DNA from: Alkalinema sp. FACHB-956 | GTDB lineage: Bacteria; Cyanobacteriota; Cyanobacteriia; Leptolyngbyales; Leptolyngbyaceae | NCBI RefSeq assembly: GCF_014697025.1 | Contig: NZ_JACJRC010000001.1 | Coordinates: 124,001 to 188,000 of the forward strand | Reading direction: 5' to 3' | DNA: 64,000 nt | Shown: positions 11,501 to 64,000 of the stretch, in pieces | Layout: the number at the start of each line of letters is the position of its first letter | How positions within the stretch are numbered: position 1 is the first letter of the stretch | The notes under the pieces: generated by a model | The model's database searches: none | Seen by the model: the letters and a program-made list of their open reading frames with translations, nothing else | What the model was told of the DNA's origin: nothing | Position numbers and translations under genes: made by a program

Positions 11501-11798
11501 CCAGCAATACATGACGGAAAAGGCCACAGCTTGGGGCTTTACCTATCGCAATTTGGCCTACCAGTGGAAGACGAAGAATGATCTGTTTTCCGATCCTAGT
11601 CACTTGAACCGCTACGGAGCCTATGTCGTGTCCCAGGCGATCGCGCGGGATGCCCTCATTCCTTGGTCCAAGAAAGCTCCCAGCCAGCGACCTTCTGGGG
11701 GCGCAACTTCTGGGGGCGTAACTTCGAATGTGCAGTCTAATCCTCGATCGGGGACTGGAGAGAGTCCCAGTGGCTTATCTTCTAATCTCGATCGGTAA
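8523..11798 (+). CDS. Large DUF1574-type protein: four N-terminal repeats, one membrane segment, SGNH-hydrolase-like domain
   Basis: The protein has 1091 residues. The N-terminal half has four diverged copies of a roughly 100-residue domain (about 20-118, 190-303, 304-403, 404-510). Each carries a beta strand pair of the form LxIxCxx and ends near a YGR/YGL...W motif. Linkers are rich in Pro, Ala and Gln. One transmembrane helix is near 585-605 (WGLLGLCVAISA). The C-terminal part (about 700-1050) resembles DUF1574/SGNH esterases: block I VGSSRALRGIDP (Ser in GSS) and block V DPSHLNRYG (Asp-His). Hence the likely topology is cytoplasmic repeats and an extracytoplasmic hydrolase or acyltransferase-like domain. 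Substrate is unknown. Proteins of this type often relate to acetylation of envelope polysaccharide, which is inference here. A 15-bp duplication (SGGAT/SGGVT) lies near the C-terminus at 11693-11722. Confidence 0.75.
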   Translation: MLNLPERPSLRKDSQGLSPLPLGEWLSRVLEMPQDAVQVRLRGNSLYILCQGNPCPPQAQVRQQLIAAIAQSRFESLLPSDSPILHRVVVYGRALGDQKPRWADTLEISQIGELWAKQQPAQAPAQPPAQHAPRGKSSSRSAQVPPSPPAPWDLSPIPSQPPEPVSSAMPSSERVSVPPLRPKAAPQSLKSLAESGKPTAIAHYLSQHLSQYNIAVRVKAKPIATDRSPIPSALVTQRLWVMCESSYSVDASLIAEAIAQRLRELKLDQFQDAIVLGQVQGEAEPDWTLRVNLTPAQEMLRQWGQWGDAAALTQLLNQRVTYAQISLQVDQTTLHIHCAGHRAAPDQGLTVAAIEQVLSPLAPRGLHGASIYGLEAQASPQQATWVHWLELPAANQVDLAESANSLAQRGDLGAIAYLLTRRLNPDLAQYLATGGIHLQVRQRDSILHIMADSLHCPPQKPTVATLTQFFREVPVPGLTGLCFYGRRSGQSQPSWRRGVDLGAKLRVVPEATPDFAASDAYVGDLLSPPGALVWIPRKERQSWSQRWEKWSAVIQDGLIRSTLFSPVVTTQQLVPDKTVATDSRLALVWGLLGLCVAISADWSLGILSKSQPQDLGQSFARSQPELKTETVQLPSLSLNKSKSPTDSTFNASGFTQEGPGMITAAKTDPTLTRINPDLPAAPLQAKAIVDPKESPYPSLNAEQLDERLALYQQSVKRSGVPDVLIVGSSRALRGIDPTALQDALAQEGYPNVKVFNFGVNGATAQVVDLLLRRLIAPNQLPKLVIWADGARAFNSGRVDITYNAIAVSEGFKQLPPVALPAIAQSEAASPAPTDPEAASAAPKAHLKEAYQTFDKQLAEGLGRLSAAYDDRSTLLTALQTRLLGGSQPSPTETSQDANQSLLIPSSGRGLIDINGFLPLSNQFNPTTYYQKYTRVSGTFDGDYESFQLPGKQEDALKAIVDYTKAKKVSLVFVNLPLTLEYLDVHRREYEETFQQYMTEKATAWGFTYRNLAYQWKTKNDLFSDPSHLNRYGAYVVSQAIARDALIPWSKKAPSQRPSGGATSGGVTSNVQSNPRSGTGESPSGLSSNLDR

Positions 11799-17412: not shown

Positions 17413-17483
17413 GCGGGTATAGTTTAGTGGTAAAACGAAAGCTTCCCAAGCTTTAGTTGCGGGTTCGATTCCCGCTACCCGCT
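17413..17483 (+). tRNA. tRNA-Gly (anticodon CCC)
   Basis: The 71-nt cloverleaf has acceptor stem GCGGGTA / TACCCGC, D-arm GTTTAGTGGTAAAAC and anticodon stem AAAGC/GCTTT with loop TTCCCAA, giving anticodon CCC. The T-arm is GCGGG-TTCGATT-CCCGC and the discriminator base is T. CCA is not encoded. It decodes GGG. A T-rich stretch follows. Confidence 0.95.
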
Positions 17484-18069: not shown

Positions 18070-19605
18070 ATGAAGCGTAATGTTTTCGCAAGCCGAATCC
18101 TGTTGACTTGGCGACACTTGTTAGGAGAGGCGCGGACACGCATCTTGCTTTGTTATGTGGGTTTGACTTTAGGCCTAGTGGTGGTGGCCTTACCGCTGAT
18201 GCAGCAGCGGGTCTTTTCTAAAGTGGATGCGCGGGTCAGGGAGGATTTAGAAGAAGAAGTTGAGGACTTTAATCGGATTTTACGGGGTGATTTGGATGAG
18301 GCCGATCGACGGGAGCTAGAAAATATCGTTGAAGATGGACGTCCACCATTTACGACCCGACCGCAAACTAAGCGCGAGGTAGAAACGATCTTTGAGCTGT
18401 ATCTGAATCGGCGGGTGCCAGAAGATGATACGTTTTTGATTGCCATTATTAACGGGGAGTTTTATAAGTCGAGTCCTAGAGCTTTACCGACAACGCTTGA
18501 CCCACAACAGGGTTTGGTAAAGGGCTGGAGTAGTCTTAAGAATTTCAAAAGGGGGAAGTTAGAACACCACGATTCCGCCTTAGGTAGCCTGAAATATATG
18601 ATCCAGCCTGTGGTGGTTGATGGCAATGTGATGGGACTGTTGGTGGTCGTCCATGGTGTCAATGGGGAACGGCAAGAGGCGATCGAAGCTTTGAGTGGCG
18701 TGATTCAGGTGTTGGGTGGGTTATTGTTTCTGGTGCTGGCGATCGCTTGGTGGCTGTCGGGGAAGCTGCTGTCGCCCTTGCGGGATTTGGTGAATACGGC
18801 GCATCAGATTAGTGAAGCCGATTTGAGTGCGCGGTTGCCTGTAGATGGCAATGGCGAGATCGCAGAATTAGCAACGACGTTTAATGACATGATGGATCGC
18901 CTAGAATCCGCATTTGCGACCCAGCGGAATTTTATTAATGATGCTGGGCATGAGTTGCGAACTCCCTTGACGATCGTGCAGGGGCATTTGGAACTGATGG
19001 GCAATGACCCGATGGAACAATCGGAAACCCTGGCTTTGGTGAATGATGAACTCGATCGCATGGGGCGCTTAGTGAATGATTTAATTTTGCTGACGAAAGC
19101 GGAGCGGCCTGATTTTCTGCAACCGGAGCAAGTAGATTTGCGAATCTTAACGGAGGAATTGCTAACAAAAGCAACGGCCTTGGGCGATCGCAATTGGCAA
19201 CTGGATCGGGTGGCACAGGGCAGTGCCTTTCTCGATCGGCAGCGCATGACGGAAGCTGTGATGAATTTGGCGCAGAATGCCGTACAGCATACAGAACCAG
19301 GGGCGGTGATTGCGATCGGGTCGAGTCATAATGGGCGCTCGCTGCGAATTTGGGTGCGGGATACGGGAGAAGGTGTGAGCACTGAAGATCAACAGCGGAT
19401 TTTTGAGCGATTTGCGCGGGCGGCAAGGAGCCGACGACGATCGGAGGGGTCGGGCTTGGGGCTAGCGATCGTGCGGGCGATCGCCGAAGCCCACCATGGA
19501 GAAGTCCACTTAGTGAGCCAAATTGGCCAGGGGGCAACCTTCATGATTGTTGTGCCAATTTTAGCGAGTGTCACCTCATCGCCAATCCGGAAGCGACAAC
19601 TGTAG
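18070..19605 (+). CDS. Membrane sensor histidine kinase
   Basis: The protein is 511 residues from ATG 18070; an upstream ATG at 17986 adds an unlikely 28 residues. Transmembrane helix 1 (about 20-40, LLCYVGLTLGLVVVALPL) and helix 2 (about 215-235) enclose a periplasmic sensor region of about 170 residues. A HAMP domain, HisKA (NDAGHELRTPLTIVQGHL, phospho-acceptor His) and HATPase_c with N box (NLAQNAVQHT), G1 (DTGEGVS), F (IFERFARA) and G2 (GSGLGLAIV) follow. It phosphorylates a partner response regulator. The OmpR-type regulator 80 bp downstream is the obvious partner, and a second receiver protein follows. The signal sensed is unknown. Confidence 0.93.
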   Translation: MKRNVFASRILLTWRHLLGEARTRILLCYVGLTLGLVVVALPLMQQRVFSKVDARVREDLEEEVEDFNRILRGDLDEADRRELENIVEDGRPPFTTRPQTKREVETIFELYLNRRVPEDDTFLIAIINGEFYKSSPRALPTTLDPQQGLVKGWSSLKNFKRGKLEHHDSALGSLKYMIQPVVVDGNVMGLLVVVHGVNGERQEAIEALSGVIQVLGGLLFLVLAIAWWLSGKLLSPLRDLVNTAHQISEADLSARLPVDGNGEIAELATTFNDMMDRLESAFATQRNFINDAGHELRTPLTIVQGHLELMGNDPMEQSETLALVNDELDRMGRLVNDLILLTKAERPDFLQPEQVDLRILTEELLTKATALGDRNWQLDRVAQGSAFLDRQRMTEAVMNLAQNAVQHTEPGAVIAIGSSHNGRSLRIWVRDTGEGVSTEDQQRIFERFARAARSRRRSEGSGLGLAIVRAIAEAHHGEVHLVSQIGQGATFMIVVPILASVTSSPIRKRQL

Positions 19606-30718: not shown

Positions 30719-31780
30719 ATGACTCAATCACAGATGACCGACACAATTGCGATCGGCAAAATCCTGGTGACGGGGGCGGCGGGTTTTATTGGGTTCCATT
30801 TGACTAAGCGCTTACTCAACGATGGCTATCAAGTGTATGGCATTGATAATCTGAATGATTACTACGATGTCAACCTGAAGCAGGCTAGATTATTACAACT
30901 GCAAGGGCACGATCGCTTTGAATTCCAGCAAATGGACTTAAGCGATCGAACCGCAATGCTAACTTTATTTGAAACCCAGCAATTTGAGGCGGTTGTTAAT
31001 CTGGCGGCGCAAGCAGGTGTGCGCTATTCCTTGGAGAACCCTTGGGCTTATATCGATAGCAACGTCACAGGCTTTGTCAATCTCCTGGAAGGCTGCCGCA
31101 AACAACCCATTAAACACCTGGTTTTTGCTTCCTCGAGCTCCGTCTATGGTGCCAATATCAAAGTCCCCTTTGCTACTTCAGACACCGTGGATTATCCAGT
31201 TTCTCTATATGCAGCCACGAAAAAATCTAATGAATTAATGGCTCATACCTATAGCCACCTCTATGGCATTCCTACAACAGGTTTGCGATTCTTCACCGTC
31301 TATGGCGAATGGGGGCGACCGGATATGGCTTACTTCAAATTTGTCAAAGCAATCACAGAAGACAAATCGATCGATGTCTACAATTTTGGTGATATGTCTC
31401 GTGATTTTACATACATTGATGATATTATCGAAGGCGTAGTGCGTGTCCTGCAAAATCCGCCTAGCCAATTAGCGACAGATCTCAATACGAATGCCTGTTA
31501 TCGAATCTATAACATTGGTAATCATAATCCCGTTAAGCTTACCGATTTTATTAGTGCGATTGAAACAACCTTAGGACAGACTGCAAAGAAGCGTTTTTTG
31601 CCGATGCAACCAGGGGATGTGCCTTGTACCTATGCTGATGTTGATGATTTATTTCAGGATGTAGGTTTCAAGCCCACAACTGATATCCAAACTGGGATTC
31701 AAAAATTTGTTGATTGGTACTTGAACTACTACAATGCATCCTTTACTCTACCACCTTGTCAAACGATCGCTGTGGCCTAG
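30719..31780 (+). CDS. NAD-dependent epimerase, UDP-glucuronate 4-epimerase-like
   Basis: The protein has 353 residues. It is an extended short-chain dehydrogenase: GAAGFIGFHLTKRLL for NAD, IDNLNDYYDVNLKQARL (diagnostic of the UDP-glucuronate epimerase subgroup), catalytic SSSSVYG and YAATKKSNELMAH (YxxxK), then LRFFTVYGEWGRPDMA. The expected reaction interconverts UDP-glucuronate and UDP-galacturonate. With the UDP-glucose dehydrogenase at the cluster head it makes a two-step route from UDP-glucose. A GAAAGGAG ribosome site precedes it. Confidence 0.92.
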   Translation: MTQSQMTDTIAIGKILVTGAAGFIGFHLTKRLLNDGYQVYGIDNLNDYYDVNLKQARLLQLQGHDRFEFQQMDLSDRTAMLTLFETQQFEAVVNLAAQAGVRYSLENPWAYIDSNVTGFVNLLEGCRKQPIKHLVFASSSSVYGANIKVPFATSDTVDYPVSLYAATKKSNELMAHTYSHLYGIPTTGLRFFTVYGEWGRPDMAYFKFVKAITEDKSIDVYNFGDMSRDFTYIDDIIEGVVRVLQNPPSQLATDLNTNACYRIYNIGNHNPVKLTDFISAIETTLGQTAKKRFLPMQPGDVPCTYADVDDLFQDVGFKPTTDIQTGIQKFVDWYLNYYNASFTLPPCQTIAVA

Positions 31781-60514: not shown

Positions 60515-60736
60515 GAAACTTGAGCGATCGACGATGGCGATTCTGGTTCAATCCTTGTTTTTTGCGATATTCTGGCACAGTTGTGTCAGTTCAAGTGTAT
60601 TAATCTGGCTAATGGATATACAGTGGATTGTCGCTTGGCTCAGATTCCCCCGATCGCGGGCTGTTGCTGCCCAATCTTCTCAATTTATCCCTACCATTAA
60701 TTAATCCCCGCCTGTATTCTTTCCTTTAGCTTGCCC

Positions 60737-62596
60737 ATGTTGCTGTCCCTCAAGATCGAAAATTTTGCGCTGATTGATCAACTTGACCTGACCTTTGGGG
60801 CGGGGCTGAATGTGCTGACGGGAGAAACCGGGGCGGGGAAGTCGATCATTTTGGACGCGATCGATGCGGTGCTGGGGGGCAAGACCTCGGGGCGGGCGGT
60901 GCGCACGGGGGAGGAACGGGCGCTGATTGAAGGGCAGTTCCAATTGCGGCCAGAGTTGCAGGCTTGGTTGGGCCAGGAAGGGATTGAAGCGAACCCTGGG
61001 GCAACTTTAGTTTGCACGCGGGAAATTTTTGCCAGTGGCAGTGCTCGCAGCAAGTCGCGGGTGAATGGCGTGACGGTGAATCGCCAACAGATGGAAAGCC
61101 TGCGGGAACTGTTGGTGGAGATTACGGCCCAGGGGCAAACGGTGCAAATTGGGCAGGCGGGGGTGCAGCGGGACTGGCTGGATAGCTTTGGGGGGGAGAA
61201 GCTGCTGAAGCTGCGGGAGCGGGTGAGTGAGAAGTTTGCGGCTTATCAGCAAGCGGCGCGGACGCTGGAGCAACGGCAGCAGATGGAGGCTCAGCGCTTG
61301 CAGCAGTTGGATCTGTTTGAGTACCAGTTGAAGGAGTTAAATATTGCCAACCTCAGCGACCCGAATGAGTTGGAGGAGTTAGAAAATGAGCGCAATCGCC
61401 TCAGCCACAGTGTGGAGCTGCAACAGCAGAGTTATCTGATCTATCAAATGCTCTACCAGAATGAAACTGGGGGGGAAGCGTTGGCCTGTGCGGATCTGCT
61501 GGGGCAGGCGGAGCAACGGCTGCTGGATATGGTGGAGTATGACAGCCAGTTGCAGCCGATTTTGGATTTGGTGGCCAATGCCTTGGCGCAGGTGGAGCAG
61601 GCGGGACGGGAAATTAATCTCTACGGTGAAAATATTGAGGCGGATCCGCACAGGCTTCAGGAGGTGCAGGAGCGCATTGTAGAGTTGAAGGCGATCTGTC
61701 GGAAGTATGGGCCGACGCTGGCGGATGCGATCGCGCTTCAGGAGAATCTGCAAGCGGAGATGGACGTTTTGACGGGGGGTGGGCAATCGCTGGCGGATTT
61801 GGAGGCGATCGCCCAGGAACGGAAGGCGGCACTGGTGGAGGCTTGTGGTAAGTTAACCCAGTTGCGGCAGGCGGCGGCAGAAACGCTGGAAACGCAGTTG
61901 GTGGCGGAGTTGAAGCCGTTGGCGATGGAGAAGGTGAAGTTCCAGGTGGGGATTGCGCCGATCGCGGCGACGCCTGCGGGGGCCGATCGCATTACCTATC
62001 TGATTAGTCCGAATCCGGGGGAGCCGTTGCAGCCGTTGACGGAAATTGCGTCCGGTGGGGAAATGAGTCGATTTTTGTTGGCGTTGCAGGCTTGTTTTTC
62101 CCAGGTGGATGCGGTGGGGACGTTGGTGTTTGATGAGATTGATGCGGGGGTGTCGGGCCGGGTGGCGGGGGCGATCGCGCAGAAGTTACACCATCTCAGT
62201 TTGCATCATCAGGTGTTGTGTGTGACGCACCAACCGATCGTGGCGGCGATGGCGGATCAGCATTTTCGGGTGAGTAAGCAGGTGATTGATCCGGAGAATG
62301 CTGGGCAGCAGGCTAAGGATAACAGTAAGGTGGAGAATTTGCGAACGGTGGTGAGGATTCAGCCGTTGGATGAGGGGGAACGGCGGTTGGAGTTGGCGCA
62401 GATTGCGAGTGGGGATGTGGTGCAGGCTGCGAATGGTTCAGCTAAGGCGGCGATCGATTTTGCGGAGTCGCTGTTGACTCAGGCGGCGAATATTCGGGAT
62501 GGGCAGCAGGTGGAGGTGGTTGAAGTGGTATCGCAAACGGTGGTGAAGAAAGCGGGGAAACCGAAAAGAAAAGCTAATAAATCAAAGGTGGGTTAG
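60737..62596 (+). CDS. recN: DNA repair protein RecN
   Basis: The protein is 619 residues from ATG 60737 (MLLSLKIENFALIDQLDLTF). It is an SMC-like ATPase with Walker A LTGETGAGKSIILDAI, long central coiled coil (about 150-370), signature SGGEMSRFLLALQ and Walker B GTLVFDEIDAGVSGRVAGAI. It is recruited to DNA double-strand breaks. The C-terminal tail (after about 575, ending KPKRKANKSKVG) is lysine-rich. The last 137 bp before the stop are copied at 63864-64000. Confidence 0.96.
   Translation: MLLSLKIENFALIDQLDLTFGAGLNVLTGETGAGKSIILDAIDAVLGGKTSGRAVRTGEERALIEGQFQLRPELQAWLGQEGIEANPGATLVCTREIFASGSARSKSRVNGVTVNRQQMESLRELLVEITAQGQTVQIGQAGVQRDWLDSFGGEKLLKLRERVSEKFAAYQQAARTLEQRQQMEAQRLQQLDLFEYQLKELNIANLSDPNELEELENERNRLSHSVELQQQSYLIYQMLYQNETGGEALACADLLGQAEQRLLDMVEYDSQLQPILDLVANALAQVEQAGREINLYGENIEADPHRLQEVQERIVELKAICRKYGPTLADAIALQENLQAEMDVLTGGGQSLADLEAIAQERKAALVEACGKLTQLRQAAAETLETQLVAELKPLAMEKVKFQVGIAPIAATPAGADRITYLISPNPGEPLQPLTEIASGGEMSRFLLALQACFSQVDAVGTLVFDEIDAGVSGRVAGAIAQKLHHLSLHHQVLCVTHQPIVAAMADQHFRVSKQVIDPENAGQQAKDNSKVENLRTVVRIQPLDEGERRLELAQIASGDVVQAANGSAKAAIDFAESLLTQAANIRDGQQVEVVEVVSQTVVKKAGKPKRKANKSKVG
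62454..62590. repeat. Direct repeat, copy 1 (inside recN 3' end)
   Basis: This segment is identical to 63864-64000 except for one base (A at 62584, G at 63994). The offset is 1410 bp. Copy 2 continues to the window edge, so the true length may be greater. Confidence 0.98.
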
Positions 62597-62627
62597 AAGG
62601 GAGAGTGGAAGGGGCGATCGTAAAATC

Positions 62628-62713
62628 AACTAACGGTTCGCGTCACCAGCCGTAGGCTGACTTTGCTGCTCACTATCATAGCTCATCGGTCTGGTGCACG
62701 CGAATTGTTATGC
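62628..62713 (-). other. attC-like recombination site (86 bp)
   Basis: Read on the minus strand the order is GCATAAC (R''), unpaired AA, stem TTCGCGTGCACCAG, variable loop, CTGGTGACGCGAA, unpaired CC, GTTAGTT (R'). The arms pair except for a 2-base central spacer and one extra G, reproducing integron attC architecture: R box, unpaired central spacer, L box, extrahelical base and variable terminal structure. The first ten bases from TAAC (TAACAATTCG) equal those of the aadA1 site as I remember it. It lies just downstream of the cassette-like gene at 62868, which is the correct place. Confidence 0.55.
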
Positions 62714-62867
62714 TGTTTGCAAAAACAATTTTTCACATTTTACAGCGGATTGCGTAACGACAAGGAACAGATACAACGCCTGAATCCCGTTCTGCTGTGG
62801 GCTGCTGTATCGATCAGTCGAGCAAAGGGCTGTATATCAAGAATTCTGATTTCAGGAACGTGGATCG

Positions 62868-63233
62868 TTATAAGTCCGGAAAAAGTCCGTGCACTTCTTC
62901 AAGCAAAGTATTTGCAAAGTCTATAATTCGAGATATGCTTGAAGATTCCAGAGCATTAGGATCAGCCCAGAAACTTGACATTTTGTCACAATCTTGTGTT
63001 ATTGAATAATTAACTTTTCTATAAGCCTGAGCAGCGTCAGACCAAAGTCGAGAAAGATTGGCTTCATGCTCATAATCTCGATTGTTCATTCCCAAGCGCA
63101 CAATTTTACCAATATAAATTCTTGTTTCAGTTACAGCTTTTCGAATAATGGATGCTCGATCTTTGTCTGCGCTCTGAATTTTTGCCAAAGCTTCCTGAAT
63201 CTTATCTAAAACCTGAATAGCATCTTGAAGCAT
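62868..63233 (-). CDS. Hypothetical helical protein, possible gene cassette
   Basis: The protein has 121 residues, all-alpha in appearance (MLQDAIQVLDKIQEALAKIQ, IIRKAVTETRIYIGKIVRLG, IIDFANTLLEEVHGLFPDL). There is no signal peptide or recognised family. Its codons are clearly more AT-rich than recN beside it, a sign of foreign origin. It reads toward the attC-like site, 155 bp beyond its stop, and away from the integrase-like fragment, as an integron cassette would. Confidence 0.7.
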   Translation of the reverse strand: MLQDAIQVLDKIQEALAKIQSADKDRASIIRKAVTETRIYIGKIVRLGMNNRDYEHEANLSRLWSDAAQAYRKVNYSITQDCDKMSSFWADPNALESSSISRIIDFANTLLEEVHGLFPDL

Positions 63234-63301
63234 ATCTTACTAAGTCTTAATGCAAGTTGACAAAGTTAATATCCAGCTACATTACTTCTTGCTGGCGCAA
63301 G

Positions 63302-63308
63302 ATTTAAC
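63302..63308 (-). other. Core-site match GTTAAAT, candidate cassette boundary
   Basis: On the minus strand GTTAAAT fits the integron core GTTRRRY exactly, 69 bp before the start of the cassette-like gene. With the attC-like R' site at 62628-62634 it would delimit a cassette of about 674 bp. Another exact match (GTTGGAT) exists at 63469-63475, so either could be the attI-side point; a match by chance is possible. Confidence 0.3.
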
Positions 63309-63480
63309 GAATTTATAGTTAACCTTAACTAAAGCACTACAAGAAAACCTAATCTAGCTTGATTTCAAACACTGATAATTACAGCCCGTACTCTGCCCTC
63401 ACTAAGGACTGAGCAGCATAACTAGATTTATATGGATCTGAGCAGATAACTACCTGGATGGGACTGTTATCCAACTTACT

Positions 63481-63522
63481 CCGCCTCAATCCGGGATAAC
63501 GACATTATCCGGATTGAGGCGG
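63481..63522. repeat. Long perfect-type inverted repeat
   Basis: CCGCCTCAATCCGGGATAA (63481-63499) pairs with TTATCCGGATTGAGGCGG (63505-63522); only one extra G breaks the 18-bp stem. Further TTATCCGG copies follow at 63543-63550 and a GTTATCC precedes at 63466. It lies between the cassette-like gene and the integrase-like fragment, where attI and promoters of an integron would be. Confidence 0.85.
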
Positions 63523-63641
63523 ATAATTCCGGTTTGGGTACATTATCCGGTAGTTCACGGTTTCCAATAGCTAATTTTTGGGAAATCTTAAGAGCAGAGG
63601 TAGTGCTGCCCAGTCAACTTTATCCCTGATTAGCGTCATGG

Positions 63642-63737
63642 ATGACTGATTCTCCCAAATTGTTCGATCGCATCTATGAAACCTTCCAACTCAAGCACCT
63701 CAGCCCCAACATGGAGAATTGGTTGCGGTGTCAGTAG
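63642..63737 (+). pseudogene. Fragment resembling the N-terminus of an integron-type tyrosine recombinase
   Basis: A 31-codon frame MTDSPKLFDRIYETFQLKHL then SPNMENWLRCQ and TAG. The pattern KLxDRxxExxxLKHxSP aligns with the start of the SAM-like N-terminal domain of IntI-type integrases (in IntI1, [20 protein letters not shown]). The rest of the enzyme is absent, and a small deletion seems to have occurred around MENW. Orientation is divergent from the cassette-like gene, as in integrons. Similarity is by eye only. Confidence 0.45.
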
Positions 63738-63863
63738 TCCTGCGGGACACTAATGCTTCTCAGTCGTTAACGTAGTGCCAATCCAAACGCACTGTGGTTA
63801 AGCATTGGGAAAGCGTTGGAATAGTCGATACAGGCTTGGGATCTGGGCTAAGTTGGTTTTTAT

Positions 63864-64000
63864 TCGATTTTGCGGAGTCGCTGTTGACTCAGGCGGCGAA
63901 TATTCGGGATGGGCAGCAGGTGGAGGTGGTTGAAGTGGTATCGCAAACGGTGGTGAAGAAAGCGGGGAAACCGAAAAGAAAAGCTAATAAATCGAAGGTG
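63864..64000. repeat. Direct repeat, copy 2 (recN 3' end duplicated)
   Basis: This is a 136/137 match to the recN tail at 62454-62590, in the same orientation. It joins upstream sequence in an open frame: from 63776, after a TAG, the frame runs through VVKHWESVGIVDTGLGSGLS into the recN tail FDFAESLLTQ and is still open at the window end. Confidence 0.98.

Follow-up and report, generated by a model that had tools for sequence, protein, structure and literature searches.

A hairpin downstream of recN in Alkalinema sp. FACHB-956 as the probable attC site of a decayed integron

Within the window (the whole stretch of 64,000 nucleotides analysed here), the hairpin at positions 62628-62713 is very probably the attC that closes an integron gene cassette, in an integron that has since decayed; this reading comes from sequence comparison and predicted folding. 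The attC interpretation had been proposed in the initial annotation from the folding of the two arms, and it is supported by the covariance score of the site, by an intact IntI gene elsewhere in the genome, by the nearby attI region and integrase remnant, and by the matching ends of the cassette. The locus adds an attC of a known type to a group for which a covariance model is already published (PMC8352920), and its surroundings are unusually informative. Integrons in cyanobacteria have likewise been reported (PMC8618304), and PMC2426708 describes intI pseudogenes and duplicates within a genome as common.

Sequence and folding of the hairpin

The arms quoted in the initial annotation, TAAC-AA and CC-GTTA, are present exactly as given on the minus strand, read from 62713 down to 62628, and they form an imperfect palindrome with the R''-L''/L'-R' layout, as judged from folds and from the alignment to our covariance model. 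The AA/CC spacer is indeed unpaired on this strand; the single extra G that had been counted is an underestimate, the minus strand carrying two extra bases, a G and an A. The asymmetries ascribed to a bottom strand recognised by IntI do exist, on a strand that is the attC top strand; the bottom strand is plus, where the extrahelical base named as G is a C and where the spacer reads GG/TT and is closed as G-T pairs by the folding program. The attC core-box consensus is RYYYAAC and GTTRRRY, and the boxes of the hairpin, GCATAAC and GTTAGTT, each agree with it at 6 of 7 positions and keep AAC and GTT intact.

Both strands of 62620-62720 folded better than their shuffles, at -19.2 kcal/mol each (z of -3.89 and -3.62), and none of 200 dinucleotide-preserving shuffles was as good on either strand; for the 86-nt hairpin alone, on the plus strand, the figure was 0 of 1000. 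A spacer and extrahelical bases in one arm are attC features according to PMC8946536, and the hairpin has both. By BLAST against the genome (E up to 10) the hairpin is single-copy, the other eight matches being 14-29 nt long with E of 1.9-6.6, so the dispersed repeat that had been named as the counter-case did not appear. The sole Rfam match at gathering scores in the whole window was a tRNA at 17413-17483.

Covariance model search and controls

For the covariance model we aligned 32 attC candidates taken from further cyanobacterial genomes; the model is our own build, not the published one, with a short calibration, and contains nothing from the window's genome, the homologue of the hairpin in the relative G010 also having been left out. 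A pairing scanner supplied the candidates, run on the DNA upstream of intI in relatives and on one G010 contig with several attC-like sites. The 32 rows were picked and their strand set by hand; excluded were near-identical copies, the odd sites that recur in L105, and candidates of low resemblance in L091, L100 and L104. Among these sequences 88.1% of cells pair as attC, and slid registers reach 44% at most, a covariation that is partly by construction since the rows were hand-chosen from a scanner rewarding pairing arms. The scanner by itself is weak and does not decide the matter: on three mononucleotide shuffles of the window it listed 2, 4 and 0 candidates, the best with a score of 11.6 where the hairpin has 13.6, and it gave simple repeats in G010 a score of 14.

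Across the 64-kb window the model returned one match at E up to 10, which is 62628-62713 on the minus strand, at 60.9 bits and E 1.3e-13; the score, for which the initial annotation had pointed to such a model, thus lay far above noise. As a positive control, 33.9 kb of R388 were searched, giving two matches at E up to 10, at 31149-31205 and 31638-31706 (41.7 and 33.2 bits), that begin where dfrB2 and the ORF after it, two integron cassette ORFs, come to an end. From this position we take them to be the plasmid's attCs, the table of the record carrying no attC entries. As a negative control, 30 recN loci (the genome's own and those of 29 relatives) gave matches at E up to 1 only in the own genome and in the relative G002. 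Among 30 intI loci with 1.5 kb flanks, 17 contained a match at E up to 0.01, some of these overlapping the model's own rows, and 13 contained none.

Cassette, attI region and integrase remnant

Along the minus strand the order is integrase remnant, attI region, cassette, attC, and then recN from the other side (Table 1; coordinates beginning G000 refer to the window's genome). The attI region and the remnant lie 0.7-1.0 kb from the hairpin, in the orientation expected for an integron. Positions 63418-63708 are 93% identical to G000:C24:34079-34370, a stretch upstream of and into an intact intI, and by this homology 63422-63641 is the attI region. The remnant shares 20 of the first 22 residues of the intact IntI, as counted by eye, after which an internal deletion leads to the intI 3' end. 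As to the parts of a complete integron, the recN locus thus has attI and, beside it, a remnant in place of an intact intI.

Table 1. Coordinates of recN, the predicted integron features and the recN duplication
Feature	Position	Strand	Basis
recN	60731..62596	plus	Pfam RecF/RecN/SMC N-terminal domain
recN 3' end and flank, direct-repeat copy 1, ending at the attC crossover	62454..62635	plus	repeat search
Probable attC site	62628..62713	minus (top strand)	cmsearch and folds
attC R' box	62628-62634		coordinates from sequence
Predicted attC crossover	between 62634 and 62633		
attC spacers	62705-62706 and 62635-62636		coordinates from sequence
attC extrahelical bases of the bottom strand, both in one arm	C 62697 and T 62690	plus	
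attC R'' box	62707-62713		coordinates from sequence
Predicted gene cassette, 788 bp	62634..63421	minus	span between the predicted attI and attC crossovers
Cassette ORF, 121 aa, orphan	62868..63233	minus	reading frame
attI region (by homology), up to the integrase start codon	63422..63641	minus	homology to C24
Integrase remnant, 31 codons and stop	63642..63737	plus	frame comparison with the intact IntI
Remnant of intI 3' end and DNA just after it	63728..63775	plus	visual comparison with the C24 and C5 sequences
recN 3' end, copy 2	63864..64000, on to G000:C1:188045 past the window	plus	repeat search
Second attC, degenerate	G000:C1:188038-188124	minus	28.3 bits, E 0.0056 genome-wide

The intact integrase gene lies elsewhere in the genome, at G000:C24:34304-35263, and the TIGR02249 profile matches it at full length (G000:C24:34325-35263) with 453.7 bits against a cut-off of 265. 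Among solved chains its product is closest to 2a3v (IntI4; 305 bits, XerA reaching 115), and it is 52.8% identical to IntI1. Contig C24 also has an attI region, a cassette and an attC. Within the attI region of the window, at 63480-63523, we observed a perfect 15-bp inverted repeat, TCCGCCTCAATCCGG/CCGGATTGAGGCGGA, one arm of which is altered at the intact integron. A 55-bp sequence after the integrase remnant, 63775-63829, recurs on contig C4 (L092:9645-9699 and 11729-11778) near a weak attC.

The predicted cassette adjoins the attI region directly. Its 5' end and the R'' flank, compared as reverse complements, match over 9 nt, and those of the C24 cassette over 12 nt. For comparison, 50 consecutive attC pairs in the arrays of relatives, which are not all independent because some cassettes recur and between some of which undetected sites are possible, showed a mean end match of 7.3 nt and reached 9 nt in 17 cases; mispaired cassette ends matched over a mean of 4.4 nt and reached 9 nt in 2%. 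The unit therefore has the composition of a cassette, with an ORF followed by attC, predicted crossovers at both boundaries and matching ends, and such matches suggest a cheap test for true cassettes.

The ORF has no family in Pfam, PADLOC or NCBIfam; 387 further genomes of the class gave no relative, and the genome_contigs scan none that was confirmed; DNA resembling 62597-63870 was likewise absent from the plasmid collection. Two points speak against the attC reading: each core box departs from the consensus at one position, and the gap from the ORF stop to attC is 154 bp, compared with 5-22 bp at five of the genome's other sites. At six further sites, however, the gap is larger, ORF and attC overlap or the ORF is unclear, the ORFs having been called mechanically.

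Duplication of the recN 3' end and a second attC

The gene that we take to be recN, from its Pfam domain, ends 31 bp before the hairpin and 37 bp before the attC crossover. Its terminal segment, 62454-62635, recurs 1410 bp downstream, so the recN 3' end flanks the unit of cassette, attI and integrase remnant. The copies agree at 142 of 143 positions in the coding part and at 32 of 37 in the non-coding part; ungapped identity is 20 of 40 past the crossover, where both sides are attC-like, and 9 of 40 before the repeat. Both 3'-end copies end at an attC crossover, and the R' box of the second, degenerate attC reads GCTAGTT. From this arrangement we infer that a chromosomal integron was rearranged at its distal end. 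A further reading takes the 1410 bp from one attC crossover to the other, comprising the cassette, attI, the integrase remnant and a recN 3' end, as one composite cassette; it is disfavoured, because the ends of this segment match over 1 nt as against 9 nt for the 788-bp cassette. Published work reportedly exists on attG sites, and one paper is said to deal with unusual attI-type cassettes.

Just upstream of the second attC lies a 1760-aa Avs4-like anti-phage defence gene (L012:8213-13495, minus, equivalent to G000:C1:188213-193495). Its resemblance to Avs4 extends over the second half (PADLOC E 4.4e-177; NCBIfam 683 bits, below the cut-off of 1500), and the gene is possibly a very large cassette. 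A BLAST search for a second attI within the 11.7 kb beyond the start of this gene gave short matches only, the best being 23 nt (E 0.001) to the flank of the integrase contig, not to attI. The same region holds a 167-bp inverted repeat (L012:14640-14806 and 18246-18412), 97% complementary, rich in CCCCCTTTTTAAGGGGG and apparently dispersed; the ORF between its arms looks like leuS.

Other attC-like sites and their distribution

The model found at least 19 attC-like sites on 12 contigs of the genome, 15 of them with E <0.01 and four weaker (two on C4, the other two on C32 and C33 respectively; 24.7-33.4 bits), whose E values apply to a search of about 0.4 Mb, so that the weakest would be worse on a genome-wide scale. 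This count is a lower bound, since 150 of 1509 first-look candidates were scored, and it leaves aside two of the 17 rows obtained (E 3.3 and 4.2). On C20, C32, C33 and C42 attCs lie close to contig ends that have no exact overlap; given this position, some of them may belong to one broken array. Four different attCs (G000 C17:93750, C7:52476, C5:140667 and C33:163) share similar DNA from the crossover on, over 43-378 bp at 87-95% identity.

A second integrase remnant with attI-like DNA occurs at G000:C5:14656-14967 (L088), at 78% identity. By eye, its deletion seems to share its ends with that of the remnant in the window, and its downstream DNA resembles that of the intact C24 integron. Conceivably, the two integrase-deleted platforms, each with attI and the same internally deleted intI, would form a small family that goes back to a single deleted ancestor, has spread through the chromosome and captures cassettes by means of the intact C24 IntI. 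We consider this unlikely on present comparison, built as it is on two remnants with apparently equal deletions; were it true, the integron would be an autonomous element with non-autonomous copies.

Across the class, IntI scores above the TIGR02249 cut-off in 122 of 388 genomes, and a search of 96 relatives at E up to 1e-6 found no DNA like the attI and remnant region. A homologous attC, 80% identical over 83 bp, follows a brnTA pair in G010. An attC adjacent to recN was present at one of 29 relatives' loci (that of G002; flanks of up to 1.5 kb, some clipped by contig ends), a count that bears on an ancestral recN-anchored integron. In G002, which belongs to another genus, the attC (L026:3472-3557, 61.3 bits) lies 69 bp after recN in the same orientation; no 16-mer was common to the end of its contig and the two ends of integrase contigs set against it. 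The G025 genome has 25 kb between recN and intI, and its stretch 3782001-3802000 gave no attC match.

Alternative explanations and proposed mechanism

Within the attC reading, the site could be a fossil, of cassette origin and no longer recombined, a sub-case that differs only in present activity and that we hold to be a real possibility without quite favouring it. The integrase remnant alongside and the degenerate R' box of the neighbouring second attC are what such decay would leave; against it, the hairpin keeps its AAC/GTT ends, its spacer and both extrahelical bases, and an intact IntI gene exists in the genome.

It is very improbable that the hairpin is a plain transcription terminator common to recN and the convergent ORF, its bulges having arisen by chance. 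Such an element would suit a position 31 bp past the end of recN, where two reading frames converge, the good folding and the T bases that make up 5 of the 8 just past the stem on either strand, but it accounts for neither the E value of the attC model, nor the adjoining attI region and intI remnant, nor the matching cassette ends. A terminator scan did not return the hairpin and says little here, as it admits loops of 3-8 bases only. The attC hairpin may also have a second role as a terminator. A dispersed palindromic repeat of the REP or MITE-like kind, unrelated to integrons, is hardly credible, for although attC-like sites recur on the 12 contigs, they differ in sequence, the hairpin has no BLAST copy, all were found by the model that also finds the two sites of R388, and attI, the intI remnant and matching cassette ends adjoin the hairpin.

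If the hairpin is an attC site, its plus (bottom) strand would fold when single-stranded, and the integrase would bind at its R and L boxes, with the spacer and the two extrahelical bases as guides. It would then cut at the R box, at 62634/62633, and join the end to attI or to another attC, and the cassette could thereby be excised or re-inserted. Because the local integrase is broken, the site could be active at present only if the intact IntI served it in trans. The genome has a well-formed attC, an attI region and a dead integrase together at the recN locus and its intact integrase gene elsewhere, so that service in trans is directly testable.

Comparison with known systems

The hairpin resembles the attCs of cyanobacterial chromosomal integrons, as represented by the 32 candidates, in its length (86 nt as against 85-89), its AAC...GTT ends, its spacer, the two extra bases in the same arm and the presence of IntI in the genome; unlike those integrons, the window locus has one cassette only, and its adjacent intI is a deletion remnant. 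The sites of the R388 class 1 integron, after dfrB2 and the next ORF, are found by the same model and likewise lie at the ends of cassette ORFs, whereas they measure 57 and 69 nt and belong to a plasmid-borne integron with an intact intI1. The locus is also comparable to the CALIN elements and pseudo-integrons of PMC8618304 and PMC2426708, which share an attC without a working local integrase; in contrast to them, it keeps an attI region, a second locus seems to share its integrase deletion, and the unit is flanked by two copies of the recN 3' end.
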